Source: Dysidea avara
Taxonomy: Eukaryota > Porifera > Demospongiae > Dictyoceratida > Dysideidae
Length of the DNA stretch: 64,000 bases
NCBI RefSeq assembly: GCF_963678975.1
Contig: NC_089273.1
Coordinates: 5,596,507 to 5,660,506 of the forward strand
Direction of reading: 5' to 3'
A program made the position numbers and the translations under genes. Of the stretch, positions 4,476-53,648 are shown piece after piece. The notes under the pieces are model-generated. The model had not been told where the DNA came from. It did not search any database and saw only the letters and a program-made list of their open reading frames with translations. How positions within the stretch are numbered: the first letter of the stretch is position 1; each line of letters starts with the position of its first letter.

Positions 4476-4480
4476 ATTAT

Positions 4481-6898: not shown

Positions 6899-9800
6899 TT
6901 ACATTTCACAAATAGTAGCATTCTTCCTCATATCATCATCAACAACAACACCATATTCCCTCATTGGTACCTCAACAATGTTATTGGCAATGCGAGGTAT
7001 TGGCTTGAAGTATTTAGTAAGCTTTTTGATATTCTTTCTGTGAATTAACATTATAAATCCAGCAAAACTGACTAATGGAAGCAGAGCAGTAATTGGTAAC
7101 AGTACACCTAAGCTGGAGCTATCAATTAGTGGGATCATTGCAATGAAAGTAATTGATAATAAAACCAATCCATCAAACAAGTTTAGTGCTTTATTTACAT
7201 ACGGTTTCTGCACAAACTGTATTAGAGCAAACACAGCACTTACAGCAAACAATAAATACTGCATTGTGTTGTTGTTAGAGAAATTGGAAATGAAGATCAC
7301 AATGATAACCAGTCGACATATCATGTAATAAGCTGCATAGTAACGACAGTTGTCTTTGTAACATCCTTGAAACTGATCCAACAATGGCTTTATTCTGATG
7401 AAGTTGATCTTGCGGTTAAGAAATGGCTCAAGTAAAAGCAGAAGTGGAAGTCCAATTGCAATTGATATTGTACACAATATTGCCACAATAGCATATGGTA
7501 AATGGCGACCGTGAAAGTAGTCAATATCAGGTGACAAGTATGTTTTAACTTGAACTGTATTTCCAATTGTAAATTTCAATGGTCGCACTATTAGCAATGA
7601 GGTTGTTGCTACAGAGGAATAGGATAGCAGCAAAAGAAAACAGACAACATGGATAATTCCCCTACTCACTAATGATGAAATCTTGTAAGATATCCTTGCT
7701 GATAAGCAGATCATTGCTAGGATGAATGTGACAGCTAATGGATGAATATAATGAATGAACTGTTGGTCAATTCCACTCATGTTTTGTATTAAACAAAACT
7801 GTCCCAGAAACTGTGGTGTGACTTTAGCAATGCTGGACATGATGCTAACAGTTGTAAATATTGCTGGTGTTGTGTATAAACTTTGGTTGAGTATGATATC
7901 AATTATACTGTAGTAATATGTAATAGCATATAAATATCCAATTCCAATTCTATAATACATCATAGCAAAGACAGCGATAACCAGAATTATCCAGTATGTA
8001 ACTGATAAAATGATCACAAGAAGCATTTGACCAGTGGTACAATAGTCAACACTTACACATTCTATAGAATCAAATGAAAGAGTATAGTTTTCCTTACAGC
8101 TGCCACAAGCAATACCAGATCGCTGTGAATTACATTGATTTGCTCTGACTGGTGATAGTTTAAAAAATCCATTAGCTGATTCACAACAAGTAAAATTACA
8201 GTAACTATTTGGACAAATTGTCACTGTAGCTTTATCCTTAACTTCACCAAACCAGTAACCTCTTTTGATAGATGATGCACTACCAGAACAAGACACAATA
8301 TCACTATCACTGTAGCATACACATGTTTGTGTAGTATTATCATAGTGGAAACCAGGGTGACATGGTGATAGTTCAGTTATTAGCTCCGCAGATATTGTTT
8401 TAAAATTAGATTTACTGCCATGATTAGAAGTAATACTGATTGTAAAATTAGTTGCATTAAAAATTCTCTTTCCTATTACACTGATTCCCTGAAATACTGT
8501 ACAAGATATCAGCACTTGTGATCCATTAATCTTATGATTGTGATTATTTCCACTAACTACAAACTTCGTAGCTTCAGCAGGCTGCTCATAATAATCTTGT
8601 ACACAAGCATCAGTTATGATTTCATGACCAAGCATTACATTCTTTATCACATAGATATAGCAGTTTGTGTGGTTATCAATGCATTTGATATCATAAAATT
8701 CTAGTGTTCTAGGAGGAGTAATGATATGATCCTTTAATCGGCTATTTAACAATGATGTTTTGTTAATGCCAACAATGCTGTTGTCCAAACAAGTCTCATC
8801 ACATGATTTTGGTACATCAATGTATATGTCAGCTTCTGTTAAGGCAGTGTTGTTGTAAAGACCAATTTCTTCTGTGTTAAATATTAATTTACTCTCATCA
8901 TTTTGCAATAGTTCACTATATATGGCTCCACCATACTGAGCACTATTATAAAAGAAATTAACAGTTGTATCATTTTTAAATGTTGTAGTATAATTGCTGC
9001 TGAGATGTATGGCTCCTCCATTACCCTTGGCTGTGTTACTAATAAATTGTGAAATAGATTTTTCAGAAAATGTTAAAATAGATTGCTGAATAGAAATAGC
9101 TCCACCATTTTCTGCACTGTTCATTTCAAATGTTGCTGAAACATTACTGGTAAGTGTTATACTAGACTGAATTATTGAAATGGCTCCACCACGCTCAGCA
9201 GTATTGCCTGTAAACATCACTGATATGTTTTCTTTTAGATAAATATCAGAAAATCTATCACAATGTATGGCCCCACCATGTTGTTCTGCTTTGTTATTAA
9301 GAAAAGTAACATTAGAATAATCTTCGATGACAGCGATAGAATGATCAAAAGAATATATCCCCCCTCCACCTCTAGTGGCTATGTTATCATCAAATGTGAC
9401 TTTACCGTATTCTGTAATACTAAGATTAGTTCTATCATGGATATACATACCTCCACCATATAAGCTGCATGTGTTGTTGGAAAATGCTGTACTGCTATAT
9501 TCATCAAAAACGATAGAGCATTTGTTGATAGAATATATTACTCCACCACTTAGTGTAGCTGTATTATTACTAAATAAAACTACAGAGTATCCTTTGAATG
9601 AAATAGCTGATTGGCTACTTAAATATAAGGCCCCACCATTTTGCCCTGCTGTGTTATTGTTAAAGGATACATTAGTATGGCAACTAAATGTCATGCTAGT
9701 TTTATCAACCAGATATACAGCTCCTCCTAGCTGCAATGCTCTATTATTTGTAAATGTAATATGAGAGTTTCCATTAAATCTCACTTCTGAATTATCAAAA

Positions 9801-12800
9801 ATATAAATAGTTCCTCCTTGTTGTTGAGCAGAATTAGTATGAAATGTGATATTAGAGTGGTCCATGCTGATCAGTTTGGAATTGTGATATAAGTATATTG
9901 CTCCACCATGTACAGCTTTGTTGTGATCTAATTTCAATGTGGAGTTTCCTTCAGACAATGTATGGCAGCAATTAGTACAATATATAGCTCCCCCTCTTTC
10001 GGCACTGTTATTGGTAAATGTTACTGATGTACTTCCATCAAATGAGACATGGCAATGTTCATGACAGTATACAGCTCCTCCAAATGTGGTAGCTGTGTTG
10101 TTGTTAAATGTAACTCTTGACGTTCCATTCAATGTGATATCAGATCCATTTATAGACATTATTCCTCCTCCAATAGATGCATAATTATCAATAAAGTCCA
10201 TGCTTGTATTTTCATGAATAATAATATTTGAAAATTGAATAAAACACATGGCTCCACCTCCATTTGTGGCTTTATTACTTTGAAGTATTGTATACGATCG
10301 ACTTTCAAATAGAACAATGGAATTGTCTTCTAAATAAATAGCTCCTCCTTGTTGCATTGCTTGATTGTTTTGCATAACAACAATGGAATTTTCACTGATT
10401 ACAACTTGGGTCAGAACATTACAATAAATAGCCGCACCATTTTGCATAGCTACATTACTACTGAACAACACTCTTGAATGTCCAGTAACAGTTATGTTGG
10501 ATTCACCAACAGCTGATATTGCTCCACCATTTTCGTTGGCTGTGTTATGACATAAGGACACATTAGAGTTTTGGTCAAAGGTAAGGAAAGATACTTTATC
10601 AGAATATATAGCTCCACCATCTATAGCTCGGTTATTGATGAATGTTACTGTTGCAATTTCTTTATACATAGCATAAGAGTTGTCATTACAGTGTACAGCT
10701 CCTCCAGTTTCAGCACTGTTATTGGTAAATGTTACTGATGTACTTCCATCAAATGAAATACCACAACGTTTATCACAGTATACAGCTCCTCCACTGGTGT
10801 TGGCTGTGTTGTTGTTAAACGACACAATAGAATTGTCACCAAATATGATAGTACTAAGATGTAATGATGCTATAACTGCTCCAAAGTTTGCTCTGTTGTT
10901 ATCAAATATTATGTTACTGTTTTGTTTGAATGACAAGGTTGAGTGTGAGTTTAGGTAAATTACTGCACCATACTTTGCTGTGTTTCTTCTTGATGTAACA
11001 GTTGACATTCCTTTGAACACAATAGAAGTGTTATCAGAAGAATACACAGCACCACCATGTTTCATTGCTGAATTACTTTGAAGCAAAATATTGGAATTTT
11101 TATTTAAAATAACATTGCTGAAGGAAAAAATATACACTGCTGCACCATTTTGATTGGCAACATTGTAATTTAACAAAACTACTGAATTTCCAATAAAAGT
11201 GATATTAGAGGCATTAGTAGATGATATGGCTCCACCATTTTGTGCAGCTAAATTGTTAGCAAGAGTAATATTGGAATATTCTTCACATATAATGTAGGAC
11301 ATAGTAGTGGAATATATAGCTCCTCCATGTGTGGCTGTGTTATGGATAAAAGTTGAATTTGAATGTCCTTTAAATATTAGAAAACAGTTGTTACTGCAGT
11401 GTACAGATCCACCAGTTTCTGCACTGTTATTTGTAAATGCTACTGATGCACTTCCATCAAATGAGATACCACAATGTTCATCACAGTATACAGCTCCTCC
11501 ACCTCTGGTGGCTGTGTTGTTGGCAACTAAATCTGACGAATTGTCATTATAAGAAATTTGACATACATAACTGGATAGTATAGTTGTCCCATTGCAAGCA
11601 AAATTTCTATCAAATGTTACCATTGTGTTACCATCAAACCTGATATTAGAGTTATTGTAAGACAGTATTGCTCCACCATCCCTCACTGCATAATTGTCCA
11701 GAAATTCTACCACAGAATTCTCACCAAATTTGATATCAGAATACTGTTTGGAATATACAGCTCCTCCAAAACTTGCACTATTACCTTTAAAGGTTATCAC
11801 TGAGCTTCCTTGATTAATAATAGAAGAATAATACTCAAATATAATTCCTCCTCCATAATTTGAGGCATGGTTGTCATTAAATGCAACTGATGATCTTCCA
11901 GTAACTGTGATACCTGAATATCGACAATACACAGCTCCTCCATCAGAGGCTTTATTATCAGTAAATGTTATGATTGATGAGTTATCAAATGTAATGTTAG
12001 ACATCATTTCAGAAAATACAGCACCACCATAATCTTCAGCACTGTTTCCAATAAATGTTACAACTGAATGTCCTTCAAAAGATTGAGTGGAATGAGTTTG
12101 GTAGATAGCTCCACCGTACATTTCAACAGAATTTCCCTCAAACTTTATAATACACTTGTCATCATATATCACAGCAGAATAGTTACAGTAAATGCCCCCA
12201 GCAGTTCTTGCTTTATTTCCTTTGAACAATACGTTACCACTAAGGTGAAGATTAGTGTGAAAAATGTAAAGGGGTACTCCTTGGTTGCTGATGAAGACAG
12301 AATTCTGCACTGAATTGTGATAAAAGTGTTTAGTGGCTGATCCATCAAGGTAAATTACACTTTGAGCAATGCTATTGAAGGAGAAGTTGCTATGTTCAAT
12401 AATAAGTTGTGATATAAAACTGGTTTTAGGTGTGTAATGAATAGCTCCACCTTGACCTGTATAATGATTATTATGTGTAAAGTTACAACTGCTAATGGTA
12501 ATGTTCCCTGATACATTAGACAGCACAACAGCTTGTCCTGTTGATTTGTAGAAAGAACAATTTTCCATTGAAATATCTGATGAATTGTAAAACATAATTC
12601 CAGGGTTTGAAGTACTCTTTTCATTGTTCATAGAACCACACCTTTGCCATTTTATACCAAAAATGGTTACATTGTTACAGTTAACAAACTCTAATCCTCC
12701 AACACTGTTACAGTTTATTACTACATTTCTGTGACCAGTAATTGTAACATTTTCAAAGAATTTTAAAGTCATTATGGTAGTCACTGTAATATCAGATGCT

Positions 12801-14464
12801 ATATAGACAATAGCATTGCTTAAATTATTTGTAAGATTGACAAGAGATTGACTTGAATTATCACAAACGGATATTGTTGAATTTCCAGTTAAAGATGTGT
12901 TAGGGGCAGTGTAAAATATATGTTGAATAGATTTGCTTACACTATGATCATAGTTTGTTTCATTGTATATCATACAAGGCATATGGTCAAACTGTACAGC
13001 TTTACCTCCTAGTAATATAAGAACTCTGTCATTAGTGAATCTCACAAATGAATTTCCCTCAAATGTAATGTTCGAAGAAGATACTGCTGTAACAGCTTGT
13101 ATATACTTGTCAATGTTTTCATCGAAGCTTACATTTGAATTTCCATCAAATTTGACTGGAGAGCTTGTGTTAGAGTATATAGCTACACCACGTAGAGCTT
13201 TGTTATGAAAATATTTTACTAGTGAATTTCCTGTAAACGATACTGAACTATTTCTTGAACTATATATAGCTCCTCCAGATTTGGCTTCATTATCATTAAA
13301 TGTTACACTTGAGTTACCATCAAATGTGATATGAGATGAATCATAACAATATACAGCTCCTCCATCATCACTGGCTTCATTATTATTAAATGTTACACTT
13401 GAGTTACCATCAAATGTGATATTGGAATTAGTACTGGATACGGCACCACCATATCTTGCACTGTTGTCCTTAAATGTCACTATTGAGTTTTCCCAAAAGA
13501 TGATCCTGGAATGAATTAAATAAATAGCTCCACCATTTTCTGTACCAGAGTTACTAATAAAATTTACATCAGACTTATCATATAATATGACAGTGGAGTT
13601 CCTGCTATAAATTCCTCCACCAGACTTTGCTGTATTACCCTTGAATAACATTCTTCCCCTAATATGAAGATTAGTATTTAAAATGTAAATTGGTACTCCT
13701 GTGTTGTTGACAAACATATTGTCTTGTATGTAAACATGACCAGGGATCCTGCTACTTGAGCCATCAATATAAACTACACTTTGTGTGGCTCTATTGGAAA
13801 TGAATTTGCAATTTTGGACCGCTAGCTTGTGTTGAATATGGCTGTTAGTATTTGGTGAATAATGTATAGCTGCTCCATGTCCACTGTATTTATTTTTGTG
13901 TGTAAAATTGCAATTGTTAATGTACACATTTCCAGGCACTTCTGAAAGTAAAACACTTCTTCCTTTGGAGTTATGGAATGAGCATCTTTCAAAAGAAACA
14001 TTGGATGAGTTGTAGAATTCAATTCCTGGATGATCTTTAGAGCTACATCCCTCCCACTGGATACCTTTAATGGTTATATTATTGCAGGAGATGAACTTTA
14101 CAGCACCAACATCATTACACTTTACAACAGGATTTCTGTGTCCTATTATCATGATATTTTCAAAACCTTCTAATGTCACAATAGAAGGCAACTCAACATC
14201 AGTTGCAATGTTAACAGTGGTGTTATTACTGGAGATGTTATTTAGAATGTCATCAATTGAAAGAAAGGTAAAGTTTCCAGATGCACAACAGGGAAGTTTA
14301 TCCTGACCTCTCTCATTTAAATCACCTGAGCCACTAACAAAATCATCACTTCTATTCTGAGAAGTATCAGATAGATCATCCGGCATCACTTTTGTAGCTC
14401 CTTCAATTTGGCTGAACAAACACACTAGCAGAACAGCAGCTATGGAAATGTTTAAGAGTTCCAT
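6899..14464 (-). CDS. Giant beta-helix multi-pass membrane protein (paralogue 1)
   Basis: A 2521-residue single-exon protein. The open frame extends 21 bases further, but its first codon is TTG. ATG at 14464 sits below a TATA box and begins a clean signal peptide (MELLNISIAAVLLVCLFSQ). Residues about 60-330 and 545-800 are two related beta-helix modules (IIGHRN, CSFxxS, CNFTH, GxIYxD). Residues to about 1880 are tandem ~24-residue Pmp-like repeats with FxxN and GGA(I/V). A cysteine-rich neck (about 2035-2140, CHPGFHYD and CGSCKENY) precedes nine or ten membrane helices (about 2145-2475) carrying HGRHLPY, LLLLEPFL and KPLLDQFQGCYKD. N-glycosylation sequons are very frequent. Repeat and membrane patterns match an uncharacterised family I know from sponges and cnidarians; a surface adhesion or recognition role is inference. 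The final ATGTAAGTT is also a splice donor, but no convincing partner exon was found. Confidence 0.9.
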   Translation of the reverse strand: MELLNISIAAVLLVCLFSQIEGATKVMPDDLSDTSQNRSDDFVSGSGDLNERGQDKLPCCASGNFTFLSIDDILNNISSNNTTVNIATDVELPSIVTLEGFENIMIIGHRNPVVKCNDVGAVKFISCNNITIKGIQWEGCSSKDHPGIEFYNSSNVSFERCSFHNSKGRSVLLSEVPGNVYINNCNFTHKNKYSGHGAAIHYSPNTNSHIQHKLAVQNCKFISNRATQSVVYIDGSSSRIPGHVYIQDNMFVNNTGVPIYILNTNLHIRGRMLFKGNTAKSGGGIYSRNSTVILYDKSDVNFISNSGTENGGAIYLIHSRIIFWENSIVTFKDNSARYGGAVSSTNSNITFDGNSSVTFNNNEASDDGGAVYCYDSSHITFDGNSSVTFNDNEAKSGGAIYSSRNSSVSFTGNSLVKYFHNKALRGVAIYSNTSSPVKFDGNSNVSFDENIDKYIQAVTAVSSSNITFEGNSFVRFTNDRVLILLGGKAVQFDHMPCMIYNETNYDHSVSKSIQHIFYTAPNTSLTGNSTISVCDNSSQSLVNLTNNLSNAIVYIASDITVTTIMTLKFFENVTITGHRNVVINCNSVGGLEFVNCNNVTIFGIKWQRCGSMNNEKSTSNPGIMFYNSSDISMENCSFYKSTGQAVVLSNVSGNITISSCNFTHNNHYTGQGGAIHYTPKTSFISQLIIEHSNFSFNSIAQSVIYLDGSATKHFYHNSVQNSVFISNQGVPLYIFHTNLHLSGNVLFKGNKARTAGGIYCNYSAVIYDDKCIIKFEGNSVEMYGGAIYQTHSTQSFEGHSVVTFIGNSAEDYGGAVFSEMMSNITFDNSSIITFTDNKASDGGAVYCRYSGITVTGRSSVAFNDNHASNYGGGIIFEYYSSIINQGSSVITFKGNSASFGGAVYSKQYSDIKFGENSVVEFLDNYAVRDGGAILSYNNSNIRFDGNTMVTFDRNFACNGTTILSSYVCQISYNDNSSDLVANNTATRGGGAVYCDEHCGISFDGSASVAFTNNSAETGGSVHCSNNCFLIFKGHSNSTFIHNTATHGGAIYSTTMSYIICEEYSNITLANNLAAQNGGAISSTNASNITFIGNSVVLLNYNVANQNGAAVYIFSFSNVILNKNSNILLQSNSAMKHGGAVYSSDNTSIVFKGMSTVTSRRNTAKYGAVIYLNSHSTLSFKQNSNIIFDNNRANFGAVIASLHLSTIIFGDNSIVSFNNNTANTSGGAVYCDKRCGISFDGSTSVTFTNNSAETGGAVHCNDNSYAMYKEIATVTFINNRAIDGGAIYSDKVSFLTFDQNSNVSLCHNTANENGGAISAVGESNITVTGHSRVLFSSNVAMQNGAAIYCNVLTQVVISENSIVVMQNNQAMQQGGAIYLEDNSIVLFESRSYTILQSNKATNGGGAMCFIQFSNIIIHENTSMDFIDNYASIGGGIMSINGSDITLNGTSRVTFNNNTATTFGGAVYCHEHCHVSFDGSTSVTFTNNSAERGGAIYCTNCCHTLSEGNSTLKLDHNKAVHGGAIYLYHNSKLISMDHSNITFHTNSAQQQGGTIYIFDNSEVRFNGNSHITFTNNRALQLGGAVYLVDKTSMTFSCHTNVSFNNNTAGQNGGALYLSSQSAISFKGYSVVLFSNNTATLSGGVIYSINKCSIVFDEYSSTAFSNNTCSLYGGGMYIHDRTNLSITEYGKVTFDDNIATRGGGGIYSFDHSIAVIEDYSNVTFLNNKAEQHGGAIHCDRFSDIYLKENISVMFTGNTAERGGAISIIQSSITLTSNVSATFEMNSAENGGAISIQQSILTFSEKSISQFISNTAKGNGGAIHLSSNYTTTFKNDTTVNFFYNSAQYGGAIYSELLQNDESKLIFNTEEIGLYNNTALTEADIYIDVPKSCDETCLDNSIVGINKTSLLNSRLKDHIITPPRTLEFYDIKCIDNHTNCYIYVIKNVMLGHEIITDACVQDYYEQPAEATKFVVSGNNHNHKINGSQVLISCTVFQGISVIGKRIFNATNFTISITSNHGSKSNFKTISAELITELSPCHPGFHYDNTTQTCVCYSDSDIVSCSGSASSIKRGYWFGEVKDKATVTICPNSYCNFTCCESANGFFKLSPVRANQCNSQRSGIACGSCKENYTLSFDSIECVSVDYCTTGQMLLVIILSVTYWIILVIAVFAMMYYRIGIGYLYAITYYYSIIDIILNQSLYTTPAIFTTVSIMSSIAKVTPQFLGQFCLIQNMSGIDQQFIHYIHPLAVTFILAMICLSARISYKISSLVSRGIIHVVCFLLLLSYSSVATTSLLIVRPLKFTIGNTVQVKTYLSPDIDYFHGRHLPYAIVAILCTISIAIGLPLLLLLEPFLNRKINFIRIKPLLDQFQGCYKDNCRYYAAYYMICRLVIIVIFISNFSNNNTMQYLLFAVSAVFALIQFVQKPYVNKALNLFDGLVLLSITFIAMIPLIDSSSLGVLLPITALLPLVSFAGFIMLIHRKNIKKLTKYFKPIPRIANNIVEVPMREYGVVVDDDMRKNATICEM

Positions 14465-21055: not shown

Positions 21056-21821
21056 ATGTCATTACTGTCAATAATGACATTTGTGATGCCTGTATGGAGT
21101 GCAGATGTCAGTTTGAAACTTCAACCTGCAACCAGTCAAACTGAGCCAGTTAATCAGGCTGAAAACCTGTCAGCCGTTGGAAGTCTCATGTATTTGGCAG
21201 TGAGTACAAGACCAGACATAGCATTTGCTGTATACAGCTTAGCTCGGTTTAACTCAAATCCTCAGAAGGACCACTGGACAGCCCTGAAACGAGTCTTAAG
21301 ATATCTAAAAGGTACTATCAATATTGGTATACTTTACAAACAAGATGGTTCAGACAAATGTATTGGGTACAGTGATGCAGACTGGGCTGGTGACACTTCA
21401 GACAGAAAGTCAACTTCTGGCTACATTTTTATGTTTAGTGGTGGACCAATCTCCTGGAGCAGTAAAAAGCAGAAGTGTGTAGCACTGTCCACAGCCGAAG
21501 CTGAGTATGTGGCATTATCTGGGGCTGCCCAAGAGTGTTTATGGCTACGACTACTAGAAAAAGAGTTAGGATGAAGGTCCAACTTTACTATTTGAAGATA
21601 ATCAATCTGCTATAGCGATGGCTAAGAATCCCCAATTTCATGGGCGAGCAAAGCATATAGACATTCGTCATCATTTTGTTCGTGAACAAGTAGCAAATGG
21701 AACTATCAAATTAGATTATTGTTCAACTAGAGACATGACCGCTGATATGATGACTAAAGGTCTGACACGTGAGCAGCATTGTAAGCTGAGAGAGAAAGTT
21801 GGAATACTTGAACTGCATTAA
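21056..21821 (+). pseudogene. Ty1/copia polyprotein C-terminal fragment (RNase H), frameshifted
   Basis: Only the end of a copia-type pol survives. The upstream frame (to 21574) carries the segment linking reverse transcriptase to RNase H (VGSLMYLAVSTRPDI), then SDADWAGD, KSTSGY, SWSSKKQ and LSTAEAEYVAL, all hallmark copia RNase H motifs. It stops at a TGA, and the protein resumes in another frame from about 21575 (EDNQSAI, KHIDIRHHFVRE) to 21821. One extra base explains the break. Gag, protease, integrase and most of the reverse transcriptase are absent. Sequence similar to copia begins about 21100, so the first residues are probably not element-derived. Confidence 0.88.
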
Positions 21822-33200: not shown

Positions 33201-33246
33201 CATTTGTGAGGACTCGTCACATAGCAACACTAAAGAAAAACCCTAT
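30243..33246. other. No supported gene downstream of gene 2
   Basis: Mostly AT-rich non-coding sequence. A 167-codon open frame at 31737-32240 (+) has biased composition and no domain I recognise. At 32660-32740 a ~24-base unit (TATATTATCATCAAGCTCC type) is repeated two to three times. A small inverted repeat lies at about 31252-31312 and a (TTA)n tract follows it. Confidence 0.4.
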
Positions 33247-33328
33247 TTAAAATGGTGTGACTGATTCTTTTGAGATGGTCTCAAAGGCCACAAATGTTTC
33301 CTTCTTCAGTGAAATTTCACCCACATAG
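33247..33328 (-). CDS. Candidate alternative last exon of gene 2 (tail B)
   Basis: On the minus strand an acceptor (...CATTGGCAG) at 33331-33329 is followed by an 82-base exon ending in TAA (33249-33247). Spliced to the gene 2 donor at 34418, the split codon becomes ATC and the frame stays open, adding 27 residues that include GEISLKKETF and end in SVTPF. The composition is protein-like and hydrophilic, as expected for a cytosolic tail. The pyrimidine tract is modest and no AATAAA follows closely. It could instead belong to another gene. Confidence 0.42.
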
Positions 33329-33849
33329 CTGCCAATGTTGGTGAGTTAAATTACAGTATAAAACACAATTTATCTACAGATATAGTTATAATGTACCAGT
33401 TTTCCAAAATCAGGTGACATAATACAAATATCATGAAAATGTTAGAATTCAACCTTGTATTGTTAAGCAGGAATATGTAGCTACATACAAGAACAGTACT
33501 AGCAATGAATATCATGAGCAGTTTTTCACCTAACCTACCATGTTAGGAATGAATTACTCCAGCTAGTAACTAGAATGTAGTTTTCTTGTGCAATGAAATG
33601 TCTGTCATATCAAATAGAACTTAGCCTTCAGCCCACCTGTTTCTGAACCAAGCCATCACTTATAATTGTGACGTACATAAAATTTTATATTATGATAGCA
33701 TTAGGGAAAAGATCTGTATATAATACACTACAGCTATTACATTAAAAAGCTGAAACTTCTATGATACACATTAGGGGGATACATGCATGTGTGACACACT
33801 ATATACATACAATCTACACTTGTCATTGTTCACATCTCATAGCATACAG

Positions 33850-33925
33850 TCAGTCTTCAATCTCATCCATCACTTCCATGAAGGATTCACGATAGTGAGT
33901 CGCATCATCCATCTCTGATTCTCTG
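33850..33925 (-). CDS. Candidate alternative last exon of gene 2 (tail A)
   Basis: On the minus strand a pyrimidine-rich acceptor (CTCTCTCCACTCTTACATATAG) ends at 33926, followed by a 76-base exon closing with TGA (33852-33850). Joined to the donor of gene 2 it completes an ATC codon and adds 25 residues, strongly acidic, starting IRESEMDD and ending MDEIED. A second CAG three bases in would also keep the frame. The implied intron is 493 bases. Phase, acceptor quality and composition all agree. Confidence 0.58.
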
Positions 33926-34231
33926 CTATATGTAAGAGTGGAGAGAGCATATTATTTGCCATGACAACAATCAAACTGTAATGGATGATGTGTAGAATAT
34001 TTAGAAACAGTAACACAGTAAAGTGCAATATTGATGGAGTTTCCTGAAGATCCAGAAACATCTTTTGATATTTGTACATACACAGGTTTGCAGCATAACC
34101 ATCAAAATTATCAAAACTTTAGTAGCACATTTGAAAGTAGCTACAGAAAAATCTACAGTGCAGTACACTATTAAAACTGCAGCAGTGGAGTATTGCATTA
34201 GCTAACTTAATGAATAATAATATTATGTTAC

Positions 34232-34241
34232 TTTATTTATT
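34232..34241 (-). terminator. Overlapping AATAAA poly(A) signals
   Basis: The minus strand reads AATAAATAAA about 175 bases past the TAA of gene 2, inside the proposed intron. It would serve a transcript that is not spliced at the donor and ends with ...ICEM. Confidence 0.5.
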
Positions 34242-34412
34242 TTTCATAGTCTTCCATCCAGCATATTTTCCTCAAATGCTTGATATTTTGCTCAACAATT
34301 ATCTTTTTTGCCTTTGACACAAATGAATGTGGTTTTGCAAGTAATTTTTGGCAATGTACATGGAAACATGATATGGCATTGCCATACCACATAATGATAA
34401 TAATAATAATAT

Positions 34413-34420
34413 ACTTACAT
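34413..34420 (-). promoter_or_regulatory. Splice donor overlapping the stop codon of gene 2
   Basis: ATGTAAGT on the minus strand is both the last sense codon plus TAA and a consensus 5' splice site (AT|GTAAGT). Gene 1 has the same arrangement (ATGTAAGTT, 6904-6896). Similarity of the two paralogues fades just after this point. Confidence 0.6.
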
Positions 34421-37400
34421 TTCACATATAGTAGCATTCACCCTCTTGCTATCATCAATAACACTATCAACAAACTCTTCTATCATCGGTATCTCATTGT
34501 TGTCATTGGTAGTGTCTGGTTTAGGTGGTACACAATATTTAGTGATTTTCTTAATTGACCTTTTGTAAAGGTAAATTTCCATTATCAGAAATGGTATTAA
34601 GGGTAGTATAACTAATACAAACATAAATGATAGCAATAAATCAGGATCATAACTGTCAATAAGTGGTACCATTGAAACCACAATCATCAGCTGTAACACA
34701 AAGCCATCAAACACATTAAGAATATTAGATCCATATGGCTTTAGTATCAAATGTATCAAGGCTAGTGTGGAATTAGCAATGATCAGTGAATACTGGGTGG
34801 TGTTATTGCTGGATGGATTAGCAATAATTACCAGAATAATCACCAGTCGACATGTCATGTAATAAGCTGCAAAACTACGATACTTGTCTTTGTAGCATCC
34901 TTGAAACTGATCCAACAATGGTTTTATCCTAGTAAAGTTTATCTTGTGGTTAAGGAATGGCTCTAGCAGCAGTAAAAGTGGTAGACCCATCACAATGATA
35001 AGTGAACATACTATTGCTATGATAACATATGGTAGATGACGTCCATGAAAATAATTTATGTCAGGTGACAGGTAAGCGTAAACCTTATCCACATTATGAA
35101 ATGTCAGTGATCTCAATAGCAGCAATGAAGTTGTTGCCACAGAAGTATAGGATAGCAGTAGAAGAAAAGAGATAACATGGATAATTCCTTTACTCACAAA
35201 TGATGAAAACTTGTATGATATCCTTGCTAATAGGCAGATTACTACTATGATAATAGCAACAGCTAGTGGATGGGCATAATGAATGAACTGTTGGTCAATT
35301 CCACTCATATTAGTTACTAAACAGAACTGTCCTAAAAATTGTGGTGTAACTTTTACAATACTGGACATAATGCTAACAAATGTAAATAATCCTTGTGATG
35401 AGTACAAGTGTTCACTTAGCAAAATATCTACCACACTGTAATAGTATGTAATAACATACAAATAACCAATCCCAATATGATAGTATGTCACAATGAACAC
35501 TAATATAACTACAACCACCCAGTAAAGGATTGATAATGTCACAACAAGTACTGTTTGTCCAGTTGTACATGTGTCAACACTTACACATTCTATAGAATCA
35601 AATGAAAGAGTAAAGCCTTCCTTACAACCACTACAAGCTGTACCAGATCGTTGTGAATTACACTGATTTGCTCTGACTGGTGAAAGTTTAAAAAATCCAT
35701 TAGCTGTTTCACAACAAGTGAAATTACAGTAACTATTTGGACAAATTGCTACTGTAGCTTTATCATTAACTTCACCAAACCAGTAACCTCTTTTGATAGA
35801 TGATGTACTACCAGAACAAGACACAATATCACTATCACTGTAGCATACACATGTTTGTGTAGTATTATCATAGTGGAAACCAGGGTGACATGGTGATAGT
35901 TCAGTTATTAGTTCAACAGATATTGTTTGTAAGCCAGATTTACTGCCACGATTAGAAGTAATTGTTATTGAAAAATTGGTTGTGTTAGAGATTCTCTTCC
36001 CTATTACACTGATTCCTTGAAATACTGTACATGATACCAGCACTTGTGATCCATTAATTTTATGATCGTGACTATTTCCACTAACCACAAATTGTGTAGC
36101 ATCAGCAGGCCGATCATAATAATCTTGTACGCAAGCATCAGTTATTATTTCATGACCAAGCATTACATTCCTCATCATATAGATATAGCAGTTTGTGTTG
36201 GTGTGGTTATCAACACATTTGATATCATAAAATTTTAGTTTACTAGGAGGAGTAGTGATGTGATCATTTAATAGGCTATTTAACAATGATCTTTTGTTAA
36301 TGCCAACGATGCTGTTGCTCAAACAGGTCTCATTACATGATGTTGGTATATCAATGTACACGTCAGCTCCTATTAAAGCAGTGTTGCTGTAAAAACCGAT
36401 CTCTTCTGTGTTAAATATTAATTTACTTTTATCACTGTGCAATAGTTCACTATATATGGCTCCACCATACAGATTAGCAGTATTATAAAAGAAATTAATG
36501 TTTGTATCATTGTTAAATGTTGCAGTATAATTGCTCCTGAGATGTATGGCTCCTCCATTACCCTTAGCCGTGTTACTAATAAATGTTGGAAAACAGTTTT
36601 CAGAAAATGTTAGAATAGATTGCTGAATAGAAAGAGCTCCACCATTTTCTGCACTGTTCATTTCAAATATTGCTGAAAAATTACTTTTGAGCATTATACT
36701 AGACTGAATTGTTGAAATAGCTCCACCACGCTCAGCAGTGTTGCCTGTAAATATTACTGATATGTTTTCTTTTGTGTAGTTGGAAAACACTGTACTGCAA
36801 TATTCATCAAAAAGGATAGAGCATTTGTTGATGGAATATATAGCTCCACCACTTAGTGTAGCTCTGTTGTTACAAAATAAAACTGTAGAGCATCCTTTAA
36901 ATGAAATAGCTGATTGGCTGCTTAAGTATAAGGCTCCACCATTTTGCATTGCTGTATTATTGTTAAAAGATACATTAACATGGCAACTAAATGTTATGCT
37001 AGCGTTGTCCAACAGATATACAGCTCCTCCTTGTTGCGATGCTCTGTTATTTGTAAATGTAATATGAGAGTTTCCATTAAATCTCACTTCTGAATTATCA
37101 ATTATATAAATAGTTCCTCCATGCTGTTGAGCAGAATTGGTATGAAATGCGATTTTAGAGTGATCCATACTGATCAGTTTGGCATTATCATATAAGTATA
37201 TTGCTCCTCCTTGTTGAATTGCTGTGTTGTTTTGGAATACAACACTACAGTTTTGATCAAACCTTATTAATGAACTTTTAAATAAATATATAGCTCCTCC
37301 TTGCTGTAAAGCTTTGTTATTCTGGAATACAAGAATGGTAGCTCCACCAAGTAGCACACGATCATTGTTGTTAGAATACATCACTGCACCATTTTGTACA

Positions 37401-40400
37401 GCAGTGTTGTGCATCAAAACAACCTGTGAATTGTCTGTGAACATGACAGTGCCATTATGAGATGATATGCATCCTCCATTTTCTGTAGCCATATTACTTC
37501 TAAAAGTAACATTAGAGTTTCTCCCGATTGTGATGTTGGACATAGTGTGAGAATATACAGCTCCACCTTGTATAGCTTTGTTGTGATCTAATTGCAATGT
37601 TGGGTTTCCTTTAGATAATATAAAGCAATGACTACAATATAAAGCTCCACCAGTTTTTGCACTGTTATTGGTAAATGTCACTGATGTACTTCCATCAAAT
37701 GAGATACCACAATGTTCATCACAGTATACAGCTCCTCCACTGATGGTGGCTGTGTTATGGTTAAATGTAACCGTTGAGTTTCTATTAAATTTAATGTTGG
37801 AGCCTATTAATGAAACTATAGCTCCTCCATATTCAGCCGTGTTGTTAATAATTTTTACTTCTGAATTATCAAGGAAATCCATAACAGATTGTTGAGTGAA
37901 ACATATGGCTCCACCATAACCCATACTAGCTGTATTGTTCTGAAACATTACTCTTGAATTACCTTCAGTGATCAAAGTGACATTGTCAGTTGAATATAAT
38001 GCACCTCCATGCTGTATAGCTTCATTACTTTTGACAACAACGTCACATAATTCACTGAGTACAATGTTGCAATTATTTGTAGAGTATATGGCTGCACCAT
38101 CTTGTATTGCAACATTGGTAAGAAAAGAAACTGCTGAATGTCCTCTAAATGCTACGTTTGAAGTATTAGCAGATGATATAGCACCACCATTTTGCTTTGC
38201 TTTGTTCTTATTAAGAAGTACTTTAGAATATCCTTCAAATATTGTATCAGATATGGTAAGTGTATGGATAGCTCCACCCTGTGTAGCTTCATTACAAGTG
38301 AAGTTCACTATTGAGTTTCCTGTGCACAGAACATAAGAATTGTCATTACAGTGTACAGCTCCACCAGTTTCTGCACTGTTATTGGTAAATGTTACTGACG
38401 TACTTCCATCAAATGAGATACCACAATGTTTATCACAGTATACAGCTCCTCCACTTGTGGTGGCTTTATTGCTATAAAACGTAACTTTTGAAATTCCTTT
38501 AAACATCACACTGGAATTGCTTGAAGATGCTATAGCTCCTCCATGCTCTGCATCATTATCATTAAAACTGATGTTAGAGGTATTTTGTAATAATAAGATT
38601 GATTGATTGTTCAAGTAGATGGCTCCACCAGTTTCTGCACTGTTATTGGTAAATGTTACTGATGCACTTCCATCAAATGAGATACCACAATGTTTATCAC
38701 AGTATACAGCTCCTCCACCAGAAGCGGCTATGTTGCTGTTAAATGTGACTGTTGAGCTTACATTTAATATCAAATAAGAGTTATTTGAAGATGCTATAGC
38801 TCCTCCATGCTCTGCATCATTATCAATGAAACTGATGTTAGAGGTATTTTGTAATAATAAGATTGATTGTTTGTTTAAGTAGACAGCTCCACCAATTTCT
38901 GCACTGTTGTTGGTAAATGTTACTGATGCACTTCCATCCAATGAGATACCACAATGTTCATCACAGTATACAGCTCCTCCACCGATGGTGGCTATGTTGT
39001 TGTTGAATGTGACTATTGGGCTAACATTAAAATTTAATGTCAAATATGAATTATTTGAAGATGCTATAGCTCCTCCATGCTCTGCATCATTATCATTAAA
39101 ACTGATGTTAGAGGAATCTTCTAATAATAGGATTGATTGTTTGCTTACATAGACAGCTCCACCAAGAATAGCACTATTTAAATTGAAACTCACCAGTAAT
39201 TTTGTTTTAAAATGCACCAAAGAGTTAGTTTTGCACATCATAGCTCCACCAGTTTCTGCACTGTTATTGGTAAATGTTACTGATGTACTTCCATCAAATG
39301 AGATACCACAATCTTCATCACAGTATACAGCTCCTCCACCTCTGGTGGCTGTGTTGTTGTTGAATGTAACTCTTGACCTTCCATTGAATGTGATATTAGA
39401 TTCTTTCATAGACAACATTCCTCCTCCAATAATTGCACTATTATCAATAAAGTCCATGCTTGTATTTTTGTAAATAATTACATTTGAATATTGAATAAGA
39501 TACATGGCTCCACCTCCAATTGTGGCTTTATTGCTTTGAAATATTGTACATGATTGACTTTCAAATATAGCAACAGAATTGTCTTCTAAATAAATAGCTC
39601 CTCCTTGTTGCATTGCTTGATTGTTTTGCATAACAACAGTGGACTTTTCACTGATTACAACTTGGGTCAGAACATTACAATAAATACCAGCACCATTTTT
39701 CATGGCTACATTACTACTGAACAACACTCTTGAATCTCCAGTAACAGTTACATTGGATTCACCAACAGCTGATATTGCTCCACCATTTTCATCGGCTGTA
39801 TTGTGACATAAGGACACATTAGAGTTTTGTTCAAATGTAAGGAAAGATACTTTATCAGAATATATAGCTCCACCGTCTGTAGCTCGGTTATTGATGAATC
39901 TTATTGTTGAGGATCCTTTATACAGAATATAAGAATTGTTATTACAGTGTACAGCTCCTCCAGTTTTTGCACTGTTATTGGTAAATGTTACTGATGCACT
40001 TCCATCAAATGAGATACCACAATATTCATCACAGTATACAGCTCCTCCACCACTGGTGGCTGTGTTGTTGGTAAACGACACCATAGATTTGTCACCAAAT
40101 ATGACATTAGTAAGATGTAATGATGCTATAGCTGCTCCAAATTTTGCACTATTGTCTTCAAACATTATGTTACTGTTTTGCTTGATTGACAATGTTGAGT
40201 GTGAGTTTAGGCAAATGACTGCACCATACTTTGCTGTGTTTCTTCTTGATGTAACACTAGACATTCCTTTGCACACAATAGAAGTGTTATCAGAAGAATA
40301 CACTGCACCACCATGCTTCATTGCCATATTACTTTGAAGCAAAATATTAGAATTTTCATCAAAAGTAACATTGCTAAAGGAAACAATATACATTGCTGCA

Positions 40401-43400
40401 CCATTTTGCTGGGCATCATTGTAATTCAACAATGCTGTCGAATTTCCATTACACGTGATATTAGAGGCATTAACAGATGATATGGCTCCACCATTTTGTG
40501 TAGCTAAATTGTTTGTAAGAGTAATATTGGAATATTCTTCACATATGATGTAGGACATAGTAGTGGAATATATAGCTCCTCCATGTGTGGCTGTGTTATG
40601 AATAAAAGTTGAAGTTGAATGTCCTTTAAATATTAGAAAAGAGTTGTCATTACAGTGTAAAGATCCCCCAGTTTCTGCACTGTTATTGGTAAATGTTACC
40701 GATGCATTTCCATCAAATGATATTCCACAATGTTCATCACAGTATACAGCTCCTCCACCTCTGGTGGCTGTGTTGGCTGCAAATAAATCTGAGGAATTGT
40801 CATTATAAGAAATTTGACAAGCATGTCTGGATAGTGTAGTTGTCCCATTGCAAACAAAATTTCTATCAAATGTTACCATTGTGTTACCATCAAATGTGAT
40901 ATTAGAGTTACTGTGAGACAAAACTGCTCCACCATCCCTCACTGCGTAATTGTCAAGAAATGCTACCACAGAGTTCCCACCAAATCTGACATCAGAATAC
41001 TGTTTGGAATATATAGCTCCTCCAATACTTGCACTATTACCATTATAGGTTACCATTGAGCTGCCTTGATTAATAATAGAAGAATAATCAAATAAAATCC
41101 CTCCTCCATAATTGGCATGGTTGTCATTAAATGTGACTGATGATCCTCCAGTAACTGTGATACCCGAATATCGACAATACACAGCTCCTCCATCAGAGGC
41201 TTTATTACCAGTAAAAGTTATGTTTGATGAGCTATCATATGTAATGTGAGACATCCAATCAGAAAATACAGCACCACCATAATCTTCAGCACTGTTTCCA
41301 ATAAATGTCACAACTGAATTTCCTTCAAAAGATTGAGTGGAATGAGTTTGGTAGATAGCTCCACCATATGTTTCAACAGAATTTCCCTCAAAAGTTACAC
41401 TACACTTGTCATCATATATTACAGTAGAATAGTTACAATAAATGCCTCCAGCAGTTCTTGCTTCATTTCCTCTGAACAATACATTACCACTAAGGTGAAG
41501 ATTAGTATGTGAAATGTAAACTGGTACTCCTTGGTTGCTGATGAAAACAGAATTCTGTACTGTAGTGTGAGATAAGTTTTTATTGGCTGATCCATCAAGG
41601 TAAATTACACTTTGATCAATGATATTGAAGGAGAAGTTGCTATGCTCAATCATAAGTCGTGATGTAAAACTGGTTTTAGGTGTGTAATGAATAGCTCCAC
41701 CATGACCTGTGTAATGATCATTATGTGTAAAGGTACAATTACTAATGTTAATATTCCCTGATACATTAGACAGCATAACAGCTTGTCCTGTTGATTTGTA
41801 AAAAGAACAACTTTCAATTGAAATATGTGATGAATTGTAAAACATAATTCTAGGCTTTGTAGTACTTTTTTCATTGTTCATAGAACCACATCTTTGCCAT
41901 TTTATACCAACAATAGCTACATTTTCACAGCTGACGACCTCTAATCCTCCAACACTTATTACTGGATCTCTGTGACCAATAATTGTAATGTTTTCAAAGA
42001 ATTGTAATGTTATTATTGTAGTCACTGTAATATCAGATGCTATATAGACAATAGCATTGTTTAAATTATTTGTAAGATTGACAAGAGACTGACTTGAATT
42101 AACACAAATAGAAATTGTTGAATTTCCAGTTAAAGATATGTTAGGGGCAGTGTAAAATACATGTTGAATAGATTTGCTTACATTATGATCATAGTTTGCT
42201 GCACTGTATATTGTGCAAGGCATACTGTTAGACTGAACAGCTTTACCTAGTAATATTAGAACTCTGTGATTAGTGAATCTTACAAATGAATTTCCGTCAA
42301 ATGTGATGTTTGAAGAAGATACTGATGTAACGGCTTTTCCATACTTGTCAATGTTTTCATCAAAGTTTACATTTGAATTTCTATCAAATTTGACTGGAGA
42401 GCTTGTGTCAGAGTATATAGCTCCACCATGTAGAGCTTTGTTGTGAAAATATCTTACTAGTGAATTTCCTGTAAACAATACTGAACTTCGTCTTGAACTA
42501 GATACAGCTCCTCCATAACTGGCCTCATTTTTATTGAATCTTACACTTGATTCACCATCAAATGTGATATGGGATGAAGACTCACAATATACAGCTCCTC
42601 CATCATCACTGGCTGCATTATTATTAAATGTTATGCTTGAGTTACCATCAAATGTGATATGAGATGAATACGAACAATATACAGCTCCTCCATAACTGGC
42701 TGTATTATTATTAAATGTTACACTTGAGTAACCATCAAATGTGATATTAGATGAAGACTGACAATGTAAAGCTCCTCCAATCAGACTGGCTTCATTATTA
42801 TTAAATGTTATGCTTGAGTTACCATCAAATGTGATATGAGATGAAGACCGACAATGTAAAGCTCCTCCAGCAATGGCTGCATTATTATTAAATGTTATAC
42901 TTGAGTTACCATCAAATGTGATATGAGATGAAGACTGACAATGTAAAGCTCCTCCAGCCAGACTGGCTTCATTATTATTAAATGTTATGCTTGAGTTACC
43001 ATCAAATGTGATATGAGATGAAGACTGACAATATACAGCTCCTCCATCACCACTGGCTTCATTGTTATTAAATGTTACACTTGAGTTACCATGAAATGTG
43101 ATATTGGAATTTTTACTGTATATGGCACCACCATACCTTGCATGGTTGTACTTAAATTTCACTATTGAGTTTGCCCAAAAGATCATCCTGGAAAGAATTT
43201 GATAAATAGCTCCACCATTATCTGTAGCAGAGATATTAATAAATTTTACATCAGATTTATCACAAAATATTACAGTGGAGTCCCTGCTATAAATTCCTCC
43301 ACCAGACTTTGCTGTATTACCCCTGAATATCATTCTTCCCCTAATATAAAGATAAATGTTTGAAATGTAAATTGATACTCCTGTGTTATTGACAAAAACA

Positions 43401-44146
43401 TTGTCTTGTAAGTAAACATGACCAGAGATCCTGCTACTTGAGCCATCAATGTAAACTACACTTTGTGTGGCTCTATTGGAAATGAATTTACAATTATGGA
43501 CCACCAACTTGTGTTGACCATGGCTATTAGTATTTGGTGAATAATGTATAGCTGCTCCATGTCCACCATATTCATTTTTATATGTAAAATTGCAATTGTT
43601 GATGCACACATTTCCAGACACTTCCGAAAGTAAAACGCTTTTTCCTTTGGAGTTATGGAATGAGCATCTTTCAAAGGAAACATTGAATGAGTTGTAGAAT
43701 TCAATTCCAGGATAATCTTTAGAGCCACATCCCTCCCACTGGATACCTTTAATGGTTATATTCTTGCAGGAGATGAACTTTACTGCACCAACATCATTAC
43801 ACTTTACAACAGGATTCCTGTGTCCTATTATCATGATATTTTCAAGACCTTCTAATGTCTCAATAGAAGACAACTCAACATCAGTTGTAATGTTGACAAT
43901 GATGTTATTACTGGAGATGTTATTTAGAATTTCAGCAATTGAATGAAAGGTAAAGTTTCCAGATACACAACAGGGAAGTTTATCCTGACCTCTCTCATTT
44001 AAATCACCTGAGCCACTAACAAAGTCATCACTTCTATTCTGAGAAGTATCAGATCGATCATTTGGCATCACTTTTGTAGCTCCTTCAATTTGGCTGAACA
44101 AACACACTAGCAGAACAGCAGCTTTGGAAATTTTTAAAAGTTCCAT
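34415..44146 (-). CDS. Giant beta-helix multi-pass membrane protein (paralogue 2)
   Basis: 3243 residues unspliced, or about 3267 with tail A. The architecture is that of gene 1: signal peptide (MELLKISKAAVLLVCLFSQ), two related beta-helix modules (second from about residue 696), tandem Pmp-like FxxN/GGA repeats, cysteine-rich neck (from about 2752), nine or ten membrane helices (about 2860-3190) with HGRHLPY, LLLLEPFL and KPLLDQFQGCYKD, and a cytosolic tail. ATG at 44146 is preferred over the TTG at 44167. Compared with gene 1 it gains extra near-identical repeats around residues 342-555 and several CDEHCG cassettes at about 1600-1930, and lacks about 80 residues near 36770. It is one 9.7-kb exon with a possible short second exon. 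Surface recognition or adhesion is inferred from architecture only. Confidence 0.9.
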   Translation of the reverse strand: MELLKISKAAVLLVCLFSQIEGATKVMPNDRSDTSQNRSDDFVSGSGDLNERGQDKLPCCVSGNFTFHSIAEILNNISSNNIIVNITTDVELSSIETLEGLENIMIIGHRNPVVKCNDVGAVKFISCKNITIKGIQWEGCGSKDYPGIEFYNSFNVSFERCSFHNSKGKSVLLSEVSGNVCINNCNFTYKNEYGGHGAAIHYSPNTNSHGQHKLVVHNCKFISNRATQSVVYIDGSSSRISGHVYLQDNVFVNNTGVSIYISNIYLYIRGRMIFRGNTAKSGGGIYSRDSTVIFCDKSDVKFINISATDNGGAIYQILSRMIFWANSIVKFKYNHARYGGAIYSKNSNITFHGNSSVTFNNNEASGDGGAVYCQSSSHITFDGNSSITFNNNEASLAGGALHCQSSSHITFDGNSSITFNNNAAIAGGALHCRSSSHITFDGNSSITFNNNEASLIGGALHCQSSSNITFDGYSSVTFNNNTASYGGAVYCSYSSHITFDGNSSITFNNNAASDDGGAVYCESSSHITFDGESSVRFNKNEASYGGAVSSSRRSSVLFTGNSLVRYFHNKALHGGAIYSDTSSPVKFDRNSNVNFDENIDKYGKAVTSVSSSNITFDGNSFVRFTNHRVLILLGKAVQSNSMPCTIYSAANYDHNVSKSIQHVFYTAPNISLTGNSTISICVNSSQSLVNLTNNLNNAIVYIASDITVTTIITLQFFENITIIGHRDPVISVGGLEVVSCENVAIVGIKWQRCGSMNNEKSTTKPRIMFYNSSHISIESCSFYKSTGQAVMLSNVSGNINISNCTFTHNDHYTGHGGAIHYTPKTSFTSRLMIEHSNFSFNIIDQSVIYLDGSANKNLSHTTVQNSVFISNQGVPVYISHTNLHLSGNVLFRGNEARTAGGIYCNYSTVIYDDKCSVTFEGNSVETYGGAIYQTHSTQSFEGNSVVTFIGNSAEDYGGAVFSDWMSHITYDSSSNITFTGNKASDGGAVYCRYSGITVTGGSSVTFNDNHANYGGGILFDYSSIINQGSSMVTYNGNSASIGGAIYSKQYSDVRFGGNSVVAFLDNYAVRDGGAVLSHSNSNITFDGNTMVTFDRNFVCNGTTTLSRHACQISYNDNSSDLFAANTATRGGGAVYCDEHCGISFDGNASVTFTNNSAETGGSLHCNDNSFLIFKGHSTSTFIHNTATHGGAIYSTTMSYIICEEYSNITLTNNLATQNGGAISSVNASNITCNGNSTALLNYNDAQQNGAAMYIVSFSNVTFDENSNILLQSNMAMKHGGAVYSSDNTSIVCKGMSSVTSRRNTAKYGAVICLNSHSTLSIKQNSNIMFEDNSAKFGAAIASLHLTNVIFGDKSMVSFTNNTATSGGGAVYCDEYCGISFDGSASVTFTNNSAKTGGAVHCNNNSYILYKGSSTIRFINNRATDGGAIYSDKVSFLTFEQNSNVSLCHNTADENGGAISAVGESNVTVTGDSRVLFSSNVAMKNGAGIYCNVLTQVVISEKSTVVMQNNQAMQQGGAIYLEDNSVAIFESQSCTIFQSNKATIGGGAMYLIQYSNVIIYKNTSMDFIDNSAIIGGGMLSMKESNITFNGRSRVTFNNNTATRGGGAVYCDEDCGISFDGSTSVTFTNNSAETGGAMMCKTNSLVHFKTKLLVSFNLNSAILGGAVYVSKQSILLLEDSSNISFNDNDAEHGGAIASSNNSYLTLNFNVSPIVTFNNNIATIGGGAVYCDEHCGISLDGSASVTFTNNSAEIGGAVYLNKQSILLLQNTSNISFIDNDAEHGGAIASSNNSYLILNVSSTVTFNSNIAASGGGAVYCDKHCGISFDGSASVTFTNNSAETGGAIYLNNQSILLLQNTSNISFNDNDAEHGGAIASSSNSSVMFKGISKVTFYSNKATTSGGAVYCDKHCGISFDGSTSVTFTNNSAETGGAVHCNDNSYVLCTGNSIVNFTCNEATQGGAIHTLTISDTIFEGYSKVLLNKNKAKQNGGAISSANTSNVAFRGHSAVSFLTNVAIQDGAAIYSTNNCNIVLSELCDVVVKSNEAIQHGGALYSTDNVTLITEGNSRVMFQNNTASMGYGGAICFTQQSVMDFLDNSEVKIINNTAEYGGAIVSLIGSNIKFNRNSTVTFNHNTATISGGAVYCDEHCGISFDGSTSVTFTNNSAKTGGALYCSHCFILSKGNPTLQLDHNKAIQGGAVYSHTMSNITIGRNSNVTFRSNMATENGGCISSHNGTVMFTDNSQVVLMHNTAVQNGAVMYSNNNDRVLLGGATILVFQNNKALQQGGAIYLFKSSLIRFDQNCSVVFQNNTAIQQGGAIYLYDNAKLISMDHSKIAFHTNSAQQHGGTIYIIDNSEVRFNGNSHITFTNNRASQQGGAVYLLDNASITFSCHVNVSFNNNTAMQNGGALYLSSQSAISFKGCSTVLFCNNRATLSGGAIYSINKCSILFDEYCSTVFSNYTKENISVIFTGNTAERGGAISTIQSSIMLKSNFSAIFEMNSAENGGALSIQQSILTFSENCFPTFISNTAKGNGGAIHLRSNYTATFNNDTNINFFYNTANLYGGAIYSELLHSDKSKLIFNTEEIGFYSNTALIGADVYIDIPTSCNETCLSNSIVGINKRSLLNSLLNDHITTPPSKLKFYDIKCVDNHTNTNCYIYMMRNVMLGHEIITDACVQDYYDRPADATQFVVSGNSHDHKINGSQVLVSCTVFQGISVIGKRISNTTNFSITITSNRGSKSGLQTISVELITELSPCHPGFHYDNTTQTCVCYSDSDIVSCSGSTSSIKRGYWFGEVNDKATVAICPNSYCNFTCCETANGFFKLSPVRANQCNSQRSGTACSGCKEGFTLSFDSIECVSVDTCTTGQTVLVVTLSILYWVVVVILVFIVTYYHIGIGYLYVITYYYSVVDILLSEHLYSSQGLFTFVSIMSSIVKVTPQFLGQFCLVTNMSGIDQQFIHYAHPLAVAIIIVVICLLARISYKFSSFVSKGIIHVISFLLLLSYTSVATTSLLLLRSLTFHNVDKVYAYLSPDINYFHGRHLPYVIIAIVCSLIIVMGLPLLLLLEPFLNHKINFTRIKPLLDQFQGCYKDKYRSFAAYYMTCRLVIILVIIANPSSNNTTQYSLIIANSTLALIHLILKPYGSNILNVFDGFVLQLMIVVSMVPLIDSYDPDLLLSFMFVLVILPLIPFLIMEIYLYKRSIKKITKYCVPPKPDTTNDNNEIPMIEEFVDSVIDDSKRVNATICEM

Positions 44147-50300: not shown

Positions 50301-50992
50301 TGCAGCTAGAAGAAGTTACCTTGTAGAGAGTTCAGCTACAAAGAAACCACCATGTAGAGAGTTCAGCTGCAAACAAATCACCCAGTAGAAAGTTCAGCTA
50401 TGGACAGATCACCCTGTTGAGAGTTCAGTTAGAAACAAGTCATCCTGTAGAGAGATCACCTAGAAGTATCACCTTGTAGAGAGTTCAGCTACAAACAAAT
50501 CACTCTGTAGAGAGTTAAGCTACAAAGAAATCATCATGTAGAGAGTTCAGCTGCAAACAAATCATCCTGTAGAGAGTTCAGCTATGAAAAGATCACCCTG
50601 TAGAGAGTTCAGCTATAAGAAGTCACCTTTTAGAGAGTTCAGCTACAAATTAAAGCAACCACCATGTAAAGAGTTCAGCTGCAAACAAATCACCCTGTAG
50701 AGAATTCAGCTACAAACAAATCTCCCTGTAGAGAGACCAGCTAGAAACAAGTCACCCTGTAGACAGATCAGCTAGAAGAAGTTACCTTGTAGAGAGTTCA
50801 GCTGCAAACAAATCACCCTGTAGAGAATTCAACTACAAACAGATAGCCCTGCAGAGAGTTCAGCTAGAGTCAAGTCACCCTGTAGAGAGAATCCTGAAAA
50901 GAGCTCATCTACATACAAGCAGATCACCCTGTAGAGAGTTCAGCTACATTTCAAGTCACCCAGTAGAGAGATCAGCTGCAAATTATCCTGTG
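47393..50992. repeat. ~31-bp satellite array 2 (3.6 kb)
   Basis: About 115 degenerate units of the form (C/T)TGTAGAGAG(A/T)TCAGCTA followed by one of several endings: CAAACAAATCACC, GAAGAAGTTACC, CAAAGAAACCACCA, GAAACAAGTCACC. The endings recur in a partly regular order, giving a higher-order pattern of roughly four to six units. Short open frames across it are noise. Confidence 0.92.
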
Positions 50993-51232
50993 GGGATTAA
51001 TTGACATGTAATAAATATATGCAAGAGTTCATAATATAATGAACTCTTGATATATGCATTATTTATATAATTTGTACATTTACTGATAAAATCAGAATGA
51101 GTTAAAGTACAGTATTTATAAAATCTGCTTCATCTTTTTCTTTTTCCTCTGGTAAAGAAAAATCTATAGGTTAAAAAGTCCCAAAGCTGGCCATAGGCCG
51201 GCTTTGGGGTATACAAATACAAAAAGAAGTGA

Positions 51233-53600: not shown

Positions 53601-53648
53601 ATTGTAACTAATTAATTTCCTGCCTGCCTGATAGCTTCAGACAAGTGT

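Follow-up and report, generated by a model that had tools for sequence, protein, structure and literature searches.

At the 3' end of gene 2, a giant gene of the sponge Dysidea avara, a stop codon and a consensus 5' splice donor share the same bases, which raises the question of where the encoded protein ends. The window analysed here, a stretch of 64,000 nucleotides, lies at C2:5596507-5660506 in a genome of 550.8 Mb and 108 contigs. The initial annotation had combined this stop with two small downstream frames into a signalling switch, in which one receptor would carry any of three alternative cytosolic tails (ICEM, acidic tail A or tail B). The overlap itself was confirmed in the letters of the window: ATGTAAGT is present at 34420-34413, and the gene end, TGTGAAATGTAAGTAT, comprises ATG at 34420-34418, TAA at 34417-34415 and the donor GTAAGT at 34418-34413, the last base of the coding exon proper being 34419.

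34415..44146, minus strand: gene 2, one large open frame of 3243 residues from the chosen ATG to the intron-borne TAA.
34413..34418, minus strand: 5' splice donor GTAAGT in phase 2, after an exon end ..GAAAT; the TAA at 34417-34415 is the first full codon of the intron in frame.
33926..34418, minus strand: last intron, 493 nt, with a TAG acceptor, delimited by comparison of copies.
33850..33925, minus strand: tail A, terminal coding exon, (I)RESEMDDATHYRESFMEVMDEIED followed by the stop TGA at 33852-33850.

Taken together, the comparisons described below make it very probable that the last intron of gene 2 is an ordinary one and that a single conserved exon supplies an acidic tail. The giant coding exon would run to a phase-2 donor; beyond an ordinary intron, a small terminal coding exon would add about 25 acidic residues ending in HYRESFMEVMDEIED, so that the normal product would read ..NATICE-I joined to RESEMDDATHYRESFMEVMDEIED.

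The family of gene 2 is very large in its own genome. When the last 493 residues served as a protein query, with 87 of 1086 candidates scored and counts thus lower bounds, at least 87 places matched at 66-100% identity, each row ending at query residue 490-493. Many of the scored places belong to open frames 1000-3300 residues long, and groups of places occur on C2 and C8; gene 1, the paralogue in the window, is absent from these 87. A DNA search of the genome with 34500-33200 gave at least 58 matches (40 of 130 candidates scored). Among the matches listed, a few near copies align along all or most of the query, whereas many distant copies break off at about query position 91, just past the donor, and resume in or near tail A. 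Loci for closer comparison were picked among these DNA matches (28 fetched and eight taken from the search itself); after removal of the duplicates L001 and L008, 34 distinct exon ends remained and, with the exon of gene 1, 35 distinct tail copies.

AT|GTRAGT is the exon end in all 34 distinct copies. Positions 1-6 of the donor are kept in 34, 34, 33, 34, 34 and 34 copies, respectively, whereas the next six positions, in ungapped columns, are kept in 26, 24, 24, 15, 17 and 23. The sole change within the donor, GTGAGT in L026, again yields both a donor and a stop (TGA). Furthermore, the G at +5 and the T at +6 play no part in the stop and are nevertheless invariant, which in a sequence alignment is the mark of a splice donor. 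The TAA is thus most likely a by-product of GTAAGT in phase 2. Indeed, an account of Drosophila introns, in the part of it available here, states that a phase-2 GT(A/G)A donor gives TAA or TGA as the first full codon (PMC2809761). Because the stop is forced in this way, its position inside the donor, which had been singled out as a special feature, is of little importance by itself, and the arrangement is already in print.

Downstream of this donor, tail A forms a 25-residue phase-2 frame, and joining 34419 to 33925 reads IRESEMDDATHYRESFMEVMDEIED followed by a stop. An AG acceptor, a phase-2 frame and a recognisable HYRESFMEVMDEIED-like core are found in all 35 distinct copies, gene 1 included; where several AGs were possible, the one giving a tail closest to 25 residues was chosen. 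The final two residues are missing from L019, and the tail of L027 stops early. The intron in front of the tail varies from about 435 to 3810 nt in the other listed copies and reaches about 13.8 kb in gene 1. The exon bears the signature of coding constraint. In 17 disjoint pairs, pN/pS is 0.41, compared with a median of 0.63 under random placement of changes (5 of 1000 as low; shared ancestry not corrected). Moreover, variable columns number 7, 3 and 15 of 23 at codon positions 1, 2 and 3, respectively, an excess at the third position that none of 10000 permutations reached, again with shared ancestry not corrected. The proposal of an in-frame acidic exon at 33850-33925 was therefore well founded. 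At the sequence level, comparison of the copies establishes the donor, the acceptor, the frame and the coding constraint of the tail of gene 2, and we infer that the splice from 34419 to tail A takes place in the animal.

The acceptor of tail A has a feature of its own.

33923..33928, minus strand: tandem acceptor TAG/CAG, 3 nt apart (NAGNAG), keeping the frame both ways (IRES.. or IES..).

TAGCAG is present in gene 2 and many copies, and the choice between the two sites adds or drops one Arg; L009 and L016 have only CAG, whereas L011, L012 and L032 have only TAG. Use of both sites would be a subtler alternative splice, one better grounded in the sequences than the three-tail switch.

Gene 1 offered a prediction that could be checked, as did a set of more distant copies.

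6899..14464, minus strand: gene 1, paralogue of gene 2; the exon end is again GAAAT|GTAAGT, and the tail exon is located beyond the window.

The exon end of gene 1 is at 6902/6901, and no tail exon was found in the 6.9 kb of the window downstream of it. A search of 30 kb of further flank located the exon on the right strand, as HYRESFIEAMNEIED (E 6e-6 within those 30 kb); it runs from L038:3140 downwards on the minus strand, about 6.9 kb ahead of the first base of the window. Its likely acceptor is TTTTGTATTTAAACAG, with two more in-frame AGs, which gives the intron of about 13.8 kb. The hold-out set comprised ten distant copies from ten contigs (66-70% identity), for which the predictions were noted before fetching. 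The tail is present in all ten, scoring 19.1-56.1 bits, whereas five shuffles per copy reached 6.7 bits at most; the weakest, in L044 (19.1 bits), ends early. All ten donors begin with GT and eight are GTRAGT; the prediction of GTRAGT in all ten failed for L045 (GTAAGA) and L043 (GTTAGC). L043 thus has no stop in its donor, and its tail exon is kept all the same.

These data also bear on the reading that the gene truly ends at ICEM and that the tail exon is a separate small gene duplicated alongside. In its favour are the long, repeat-containing intron of gene 1 and the result that no intronless copy showing the junction was found among the scored matches. However, a tail in phase and on the same strand follows the exon end in 33 of the 34 distinct loci (that of gene 1 in the flank fetched later) as well as in all ten hold-out copies, the donor bases past the stop are conserved, and no start codon is conserved in the tail frame upstream of its core. 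A separate gene is therefore highly improbable. In the one remaining locus, L029, the exon end is present and the fetched stretch contains no tail exon; about 20 kb farther on, L030 has a tail on the same strand.

Intronless copies were sought with the joined sequence. None was found among 40 scored of 111 candidates, where the rows reach at most 11 bases across the join; a start at query position 83 is forced by the query and was not counted as evidence. Nor was any found among 150 scored of 167, most of these rows being read in the table only. Five of the 150 rows run more than eight residues past the junction on both sides. C2:15196999, C9:17783864 and C1:29391695 each contain stops, and C2:5431238 is L013, which has a donor followed by about 870 nt of intron. 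C2:49150815 has a longer tail exon behind an acceptor and no significant match to the first exon in the 1.3 kb fetched. This last locus (L050, C2:49150815-49150943) is of interest in its own right, since its tail starts differently, with SSPIDNSDELNDSSCIQNACTQDDYESAIHYRESFMEVMDSIKD; the first half is unlike that of gene 2 and the HYRESFMEVMD core is the same.

The second small frame gave a different result.

33247..33328, minus strand: tail B frame, 27 residues, phase 2, rejected as an exon.

Joining 34419 to 33328 reads IYVGEISLKKETFVAFETISKESVTPF followed by a stop. That this frame is kept says little, because any terminal exon reads on until it meets a stop. Indeed, a count of phase-2 frames of 24-60 residues preceded by AG gave nine in 33200-34412, and 300 Markov resamples averaged 9.2. 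When a YAG and 8 or more pyrimidines out of 15 are also required, six frames remain (two pairs of them nested) against a mean of 2.45, and two or more occur in 203 of the 300 resamples. Two phase-compatible small frames by themselves are not clearly above chance, and phase compatibility was set aside as evidence for exons, the number of frames being at chance level. In our sequence comparisons, it is homology that raises tail A above chance, and the tail B frame is without it.

In fact, the tail B frame is broken in all five copies in which its acceptor could be aligned: in L002 a stop follows after nine residues, and in L003, L004, L005 and L012 one extra base changes the frame. A different frame, of 45 residues, is open at this place in the latter four. 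L014, L015, L019 and L031 align to tail B more loosely, with another frame of 21 residues; L006 and L007 show no match to tail B, and L009, L011 and L013 have no tail B acceptor. The 27-residue frame fits phase 2 in the window but, given these breaks, does not qualify as an alternative tail. Three tails chosen by splicing (ICEM, A and B) are accordingly an extremely improbable arrangement, despite the fit of both small exons to phase 2 and the AG at the tail B acceptor, which is kept in five of the five aligned copies. The broken frame and the chance number of compatible frames weigh against it. Thus, of the proposed switch on one receptor only tail A is supported, tail B being broken and the intronic AATAAA, discussed below, not clearly enriched.

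A separate observation concerns 33200-33260, where tail B ends and the sequence continues past it: this block (CCATTTTAAATAGG .. AGTCCTCACAAA) is recognisable in 12 fetched loci besides gene 2 (L008 and L012 counted as one). The tail B frame is not kept there, and the block is perhaps a transcript end or a regulatory stretch.

There remains the stop itself. ICEM is most likely the reading carried on into the intron, and a protein ending in it could arise by intron retention or intronic polyadenylation. For the latter, the initial annotation had pointed to a motif that might end an unspliced form.

34232..34241, minus strand: AATAAATAAA, candidate intronic poly(A) signal, 177 nt into the intron, not clearly supported.

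The letters are present, at 34241-34232 and thus slightly above the 34220 first given, whereas enrichment across the family is not clear. Of the 32 distinct introns measured, seven contain AATAAATAAA, namely those of gene 2 and its six nearest copies. AATAAA was tested in 44 introns grouped in 23 clusters, at about 90-185 nt into the intron, an interval chosen after looking. With this post hoc interval, 6 of 23 cluster representatives carry an early-intron AATAAA against a mean of 3.0, and 165 of 2000 shuffles reach 6. If any member of a cluster is counted, the figure rises to 7 of 23, which 54 of 2000 shuffles of single representatives reach, a comparison favouring the observed count.

On this basis ICEM might be a second real C-terminus, with the last intron sometimes retained or the transcript ending at AATAAATAAA, and with a product devoid of the acidic tail. 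Retention of a last intron need not trigger decay. Intron retention is also common in one other sponge, Amphimedon, where it accounts for 45.0% of alternative splicing events and alternative terminal exons for 22.1%, as given in the available part of the source (PMC4432959). Further points in favour are the count of AATAAA when any cluster member is considered and the retention of AATAAATAAA in gene 2 and its six near copies, while AATAAA is absent from the 1500 nt past the tail stop of gene 2. More generally, 10 of the 35 copies, gene 2 and three of the six near copies among them, have no AATAAA in the 1500 nt that follow the tail stop, which speaks against the reading of a single spliced tail; AATATAAA is located about 160 nt past the tail stop of gene 2. 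Conversely, the test with one representative per cluster is weaker and its interval was picked after looking, and the near copies are so alike that a shared AATAAATAAA carries little weight. The conserved stop and M give no independent support because the donor forces both, and in L043, without a stop in the donor, the tail exon is kept nonetheless. We therefore regard a second C-terminus at ICEM as unlikely. Similarly, it is doubtful that gene 2 and its six nearest copies, as a young sub-clade, use AATAAATAAA to make either acidic-tail or tailless ICEM products; if they did, this would amount to regulated loss of a signal kept by the rest of the family.

A single conserved acidic tail is thus the preferred reading, and it has consequences for the gene model, since an annotation stopping at ICEM loses a presumed cytosolic piece common to the copies examined. 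By eye, the start of the gene 2 protein resembles a signal peptide; long PMP-type repeats follow, in which N-N-x-A and GGA(I/V)Y are visible, together with a Cys-rich stretch and several hydrophobic segments. Chlam_PMP (Pfam PF02415) scores just above the cut-off in the 761-residue stretch of gene 2 that was scanned (E 0.00028, 21.3 vs 20.6 bits), and a 700-residue stretch of gene 1, the part of that protein scanned, has no Pfam match. For the membrane part, the best sequence match is DUF7630, of unknown function (E 0.016, 5 of 16 members); among solved structures only the factor Xa light chain appeared (E 0.99) and no receptor was matched, and the fold model of this part is unusable (mean pLDDT 39.4). 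Relatives were also sought in viral and prokaryote contigs, where none was confirmed. That the product is a receptor is a fair guess, and its large family is possibly a recognition-receptor family. In the literature searched (titles and abstract starts) no paper on the family was found, which does not make it undescribed. If tail A is cytosolic, as presumed, its conserved core may be a docking or sorting signal common to the family; the shared HYRESFMEVMDEIED offers a handle on the intracellular partners of this huge family of surface-type proteins.

Several other features of the window deserve mention. Gene 1 is 722 residues shorter than gene 2 (2521 vs 3243), and whole blocks of ectodomain repeats are present in one only. 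Most of their well-aligned 100-column blocks are 72-89% identical, with a drop to 41% shortly before ICEM. Repeats lie at 4480-6785, inside the last intron of gene 1: two copies of a sequence of about 550 bases (6785-6246 and 6021-5469, 84% identical) and a further pair of 236-base repeats (87%). Dense arrays of repeat units of about 105-120 bases occupy 47488-55400 and are related to units within about 1985-3700. At 21056-21574 an open frame of 172 residues is found, whose translation resembles the end of a copia-type retrotransposon polyprotein.

Three known systems invite comparison. The likeness to Chlam_PMP repeat proteins (PF02415) consists of the one Pfam match and the repeats in gene 2, which differs from them in its giant size, its intron, its several hydrophobic segments and a tail predicted to be spliced on. 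With isoforms that shorten protein tails by intronic polyadenylation or intron retention, gene 2 shares the donor, the in-frame stop and the intronic AATAAATAAA; it differs in that the signal lacks clear family-wide conservation. The closest counterpart is provided by the phase-2 GT(A/G)A introns, as far as the available part of the source describes them (PMC2809761), since the arrangement in gene 2 is exactly theirs and of the same kind. What sets gene 2 apart from such introns in general is the place of its intron, which is the last one found and would stand between a giant exon and a tail exon of about 25 residues.
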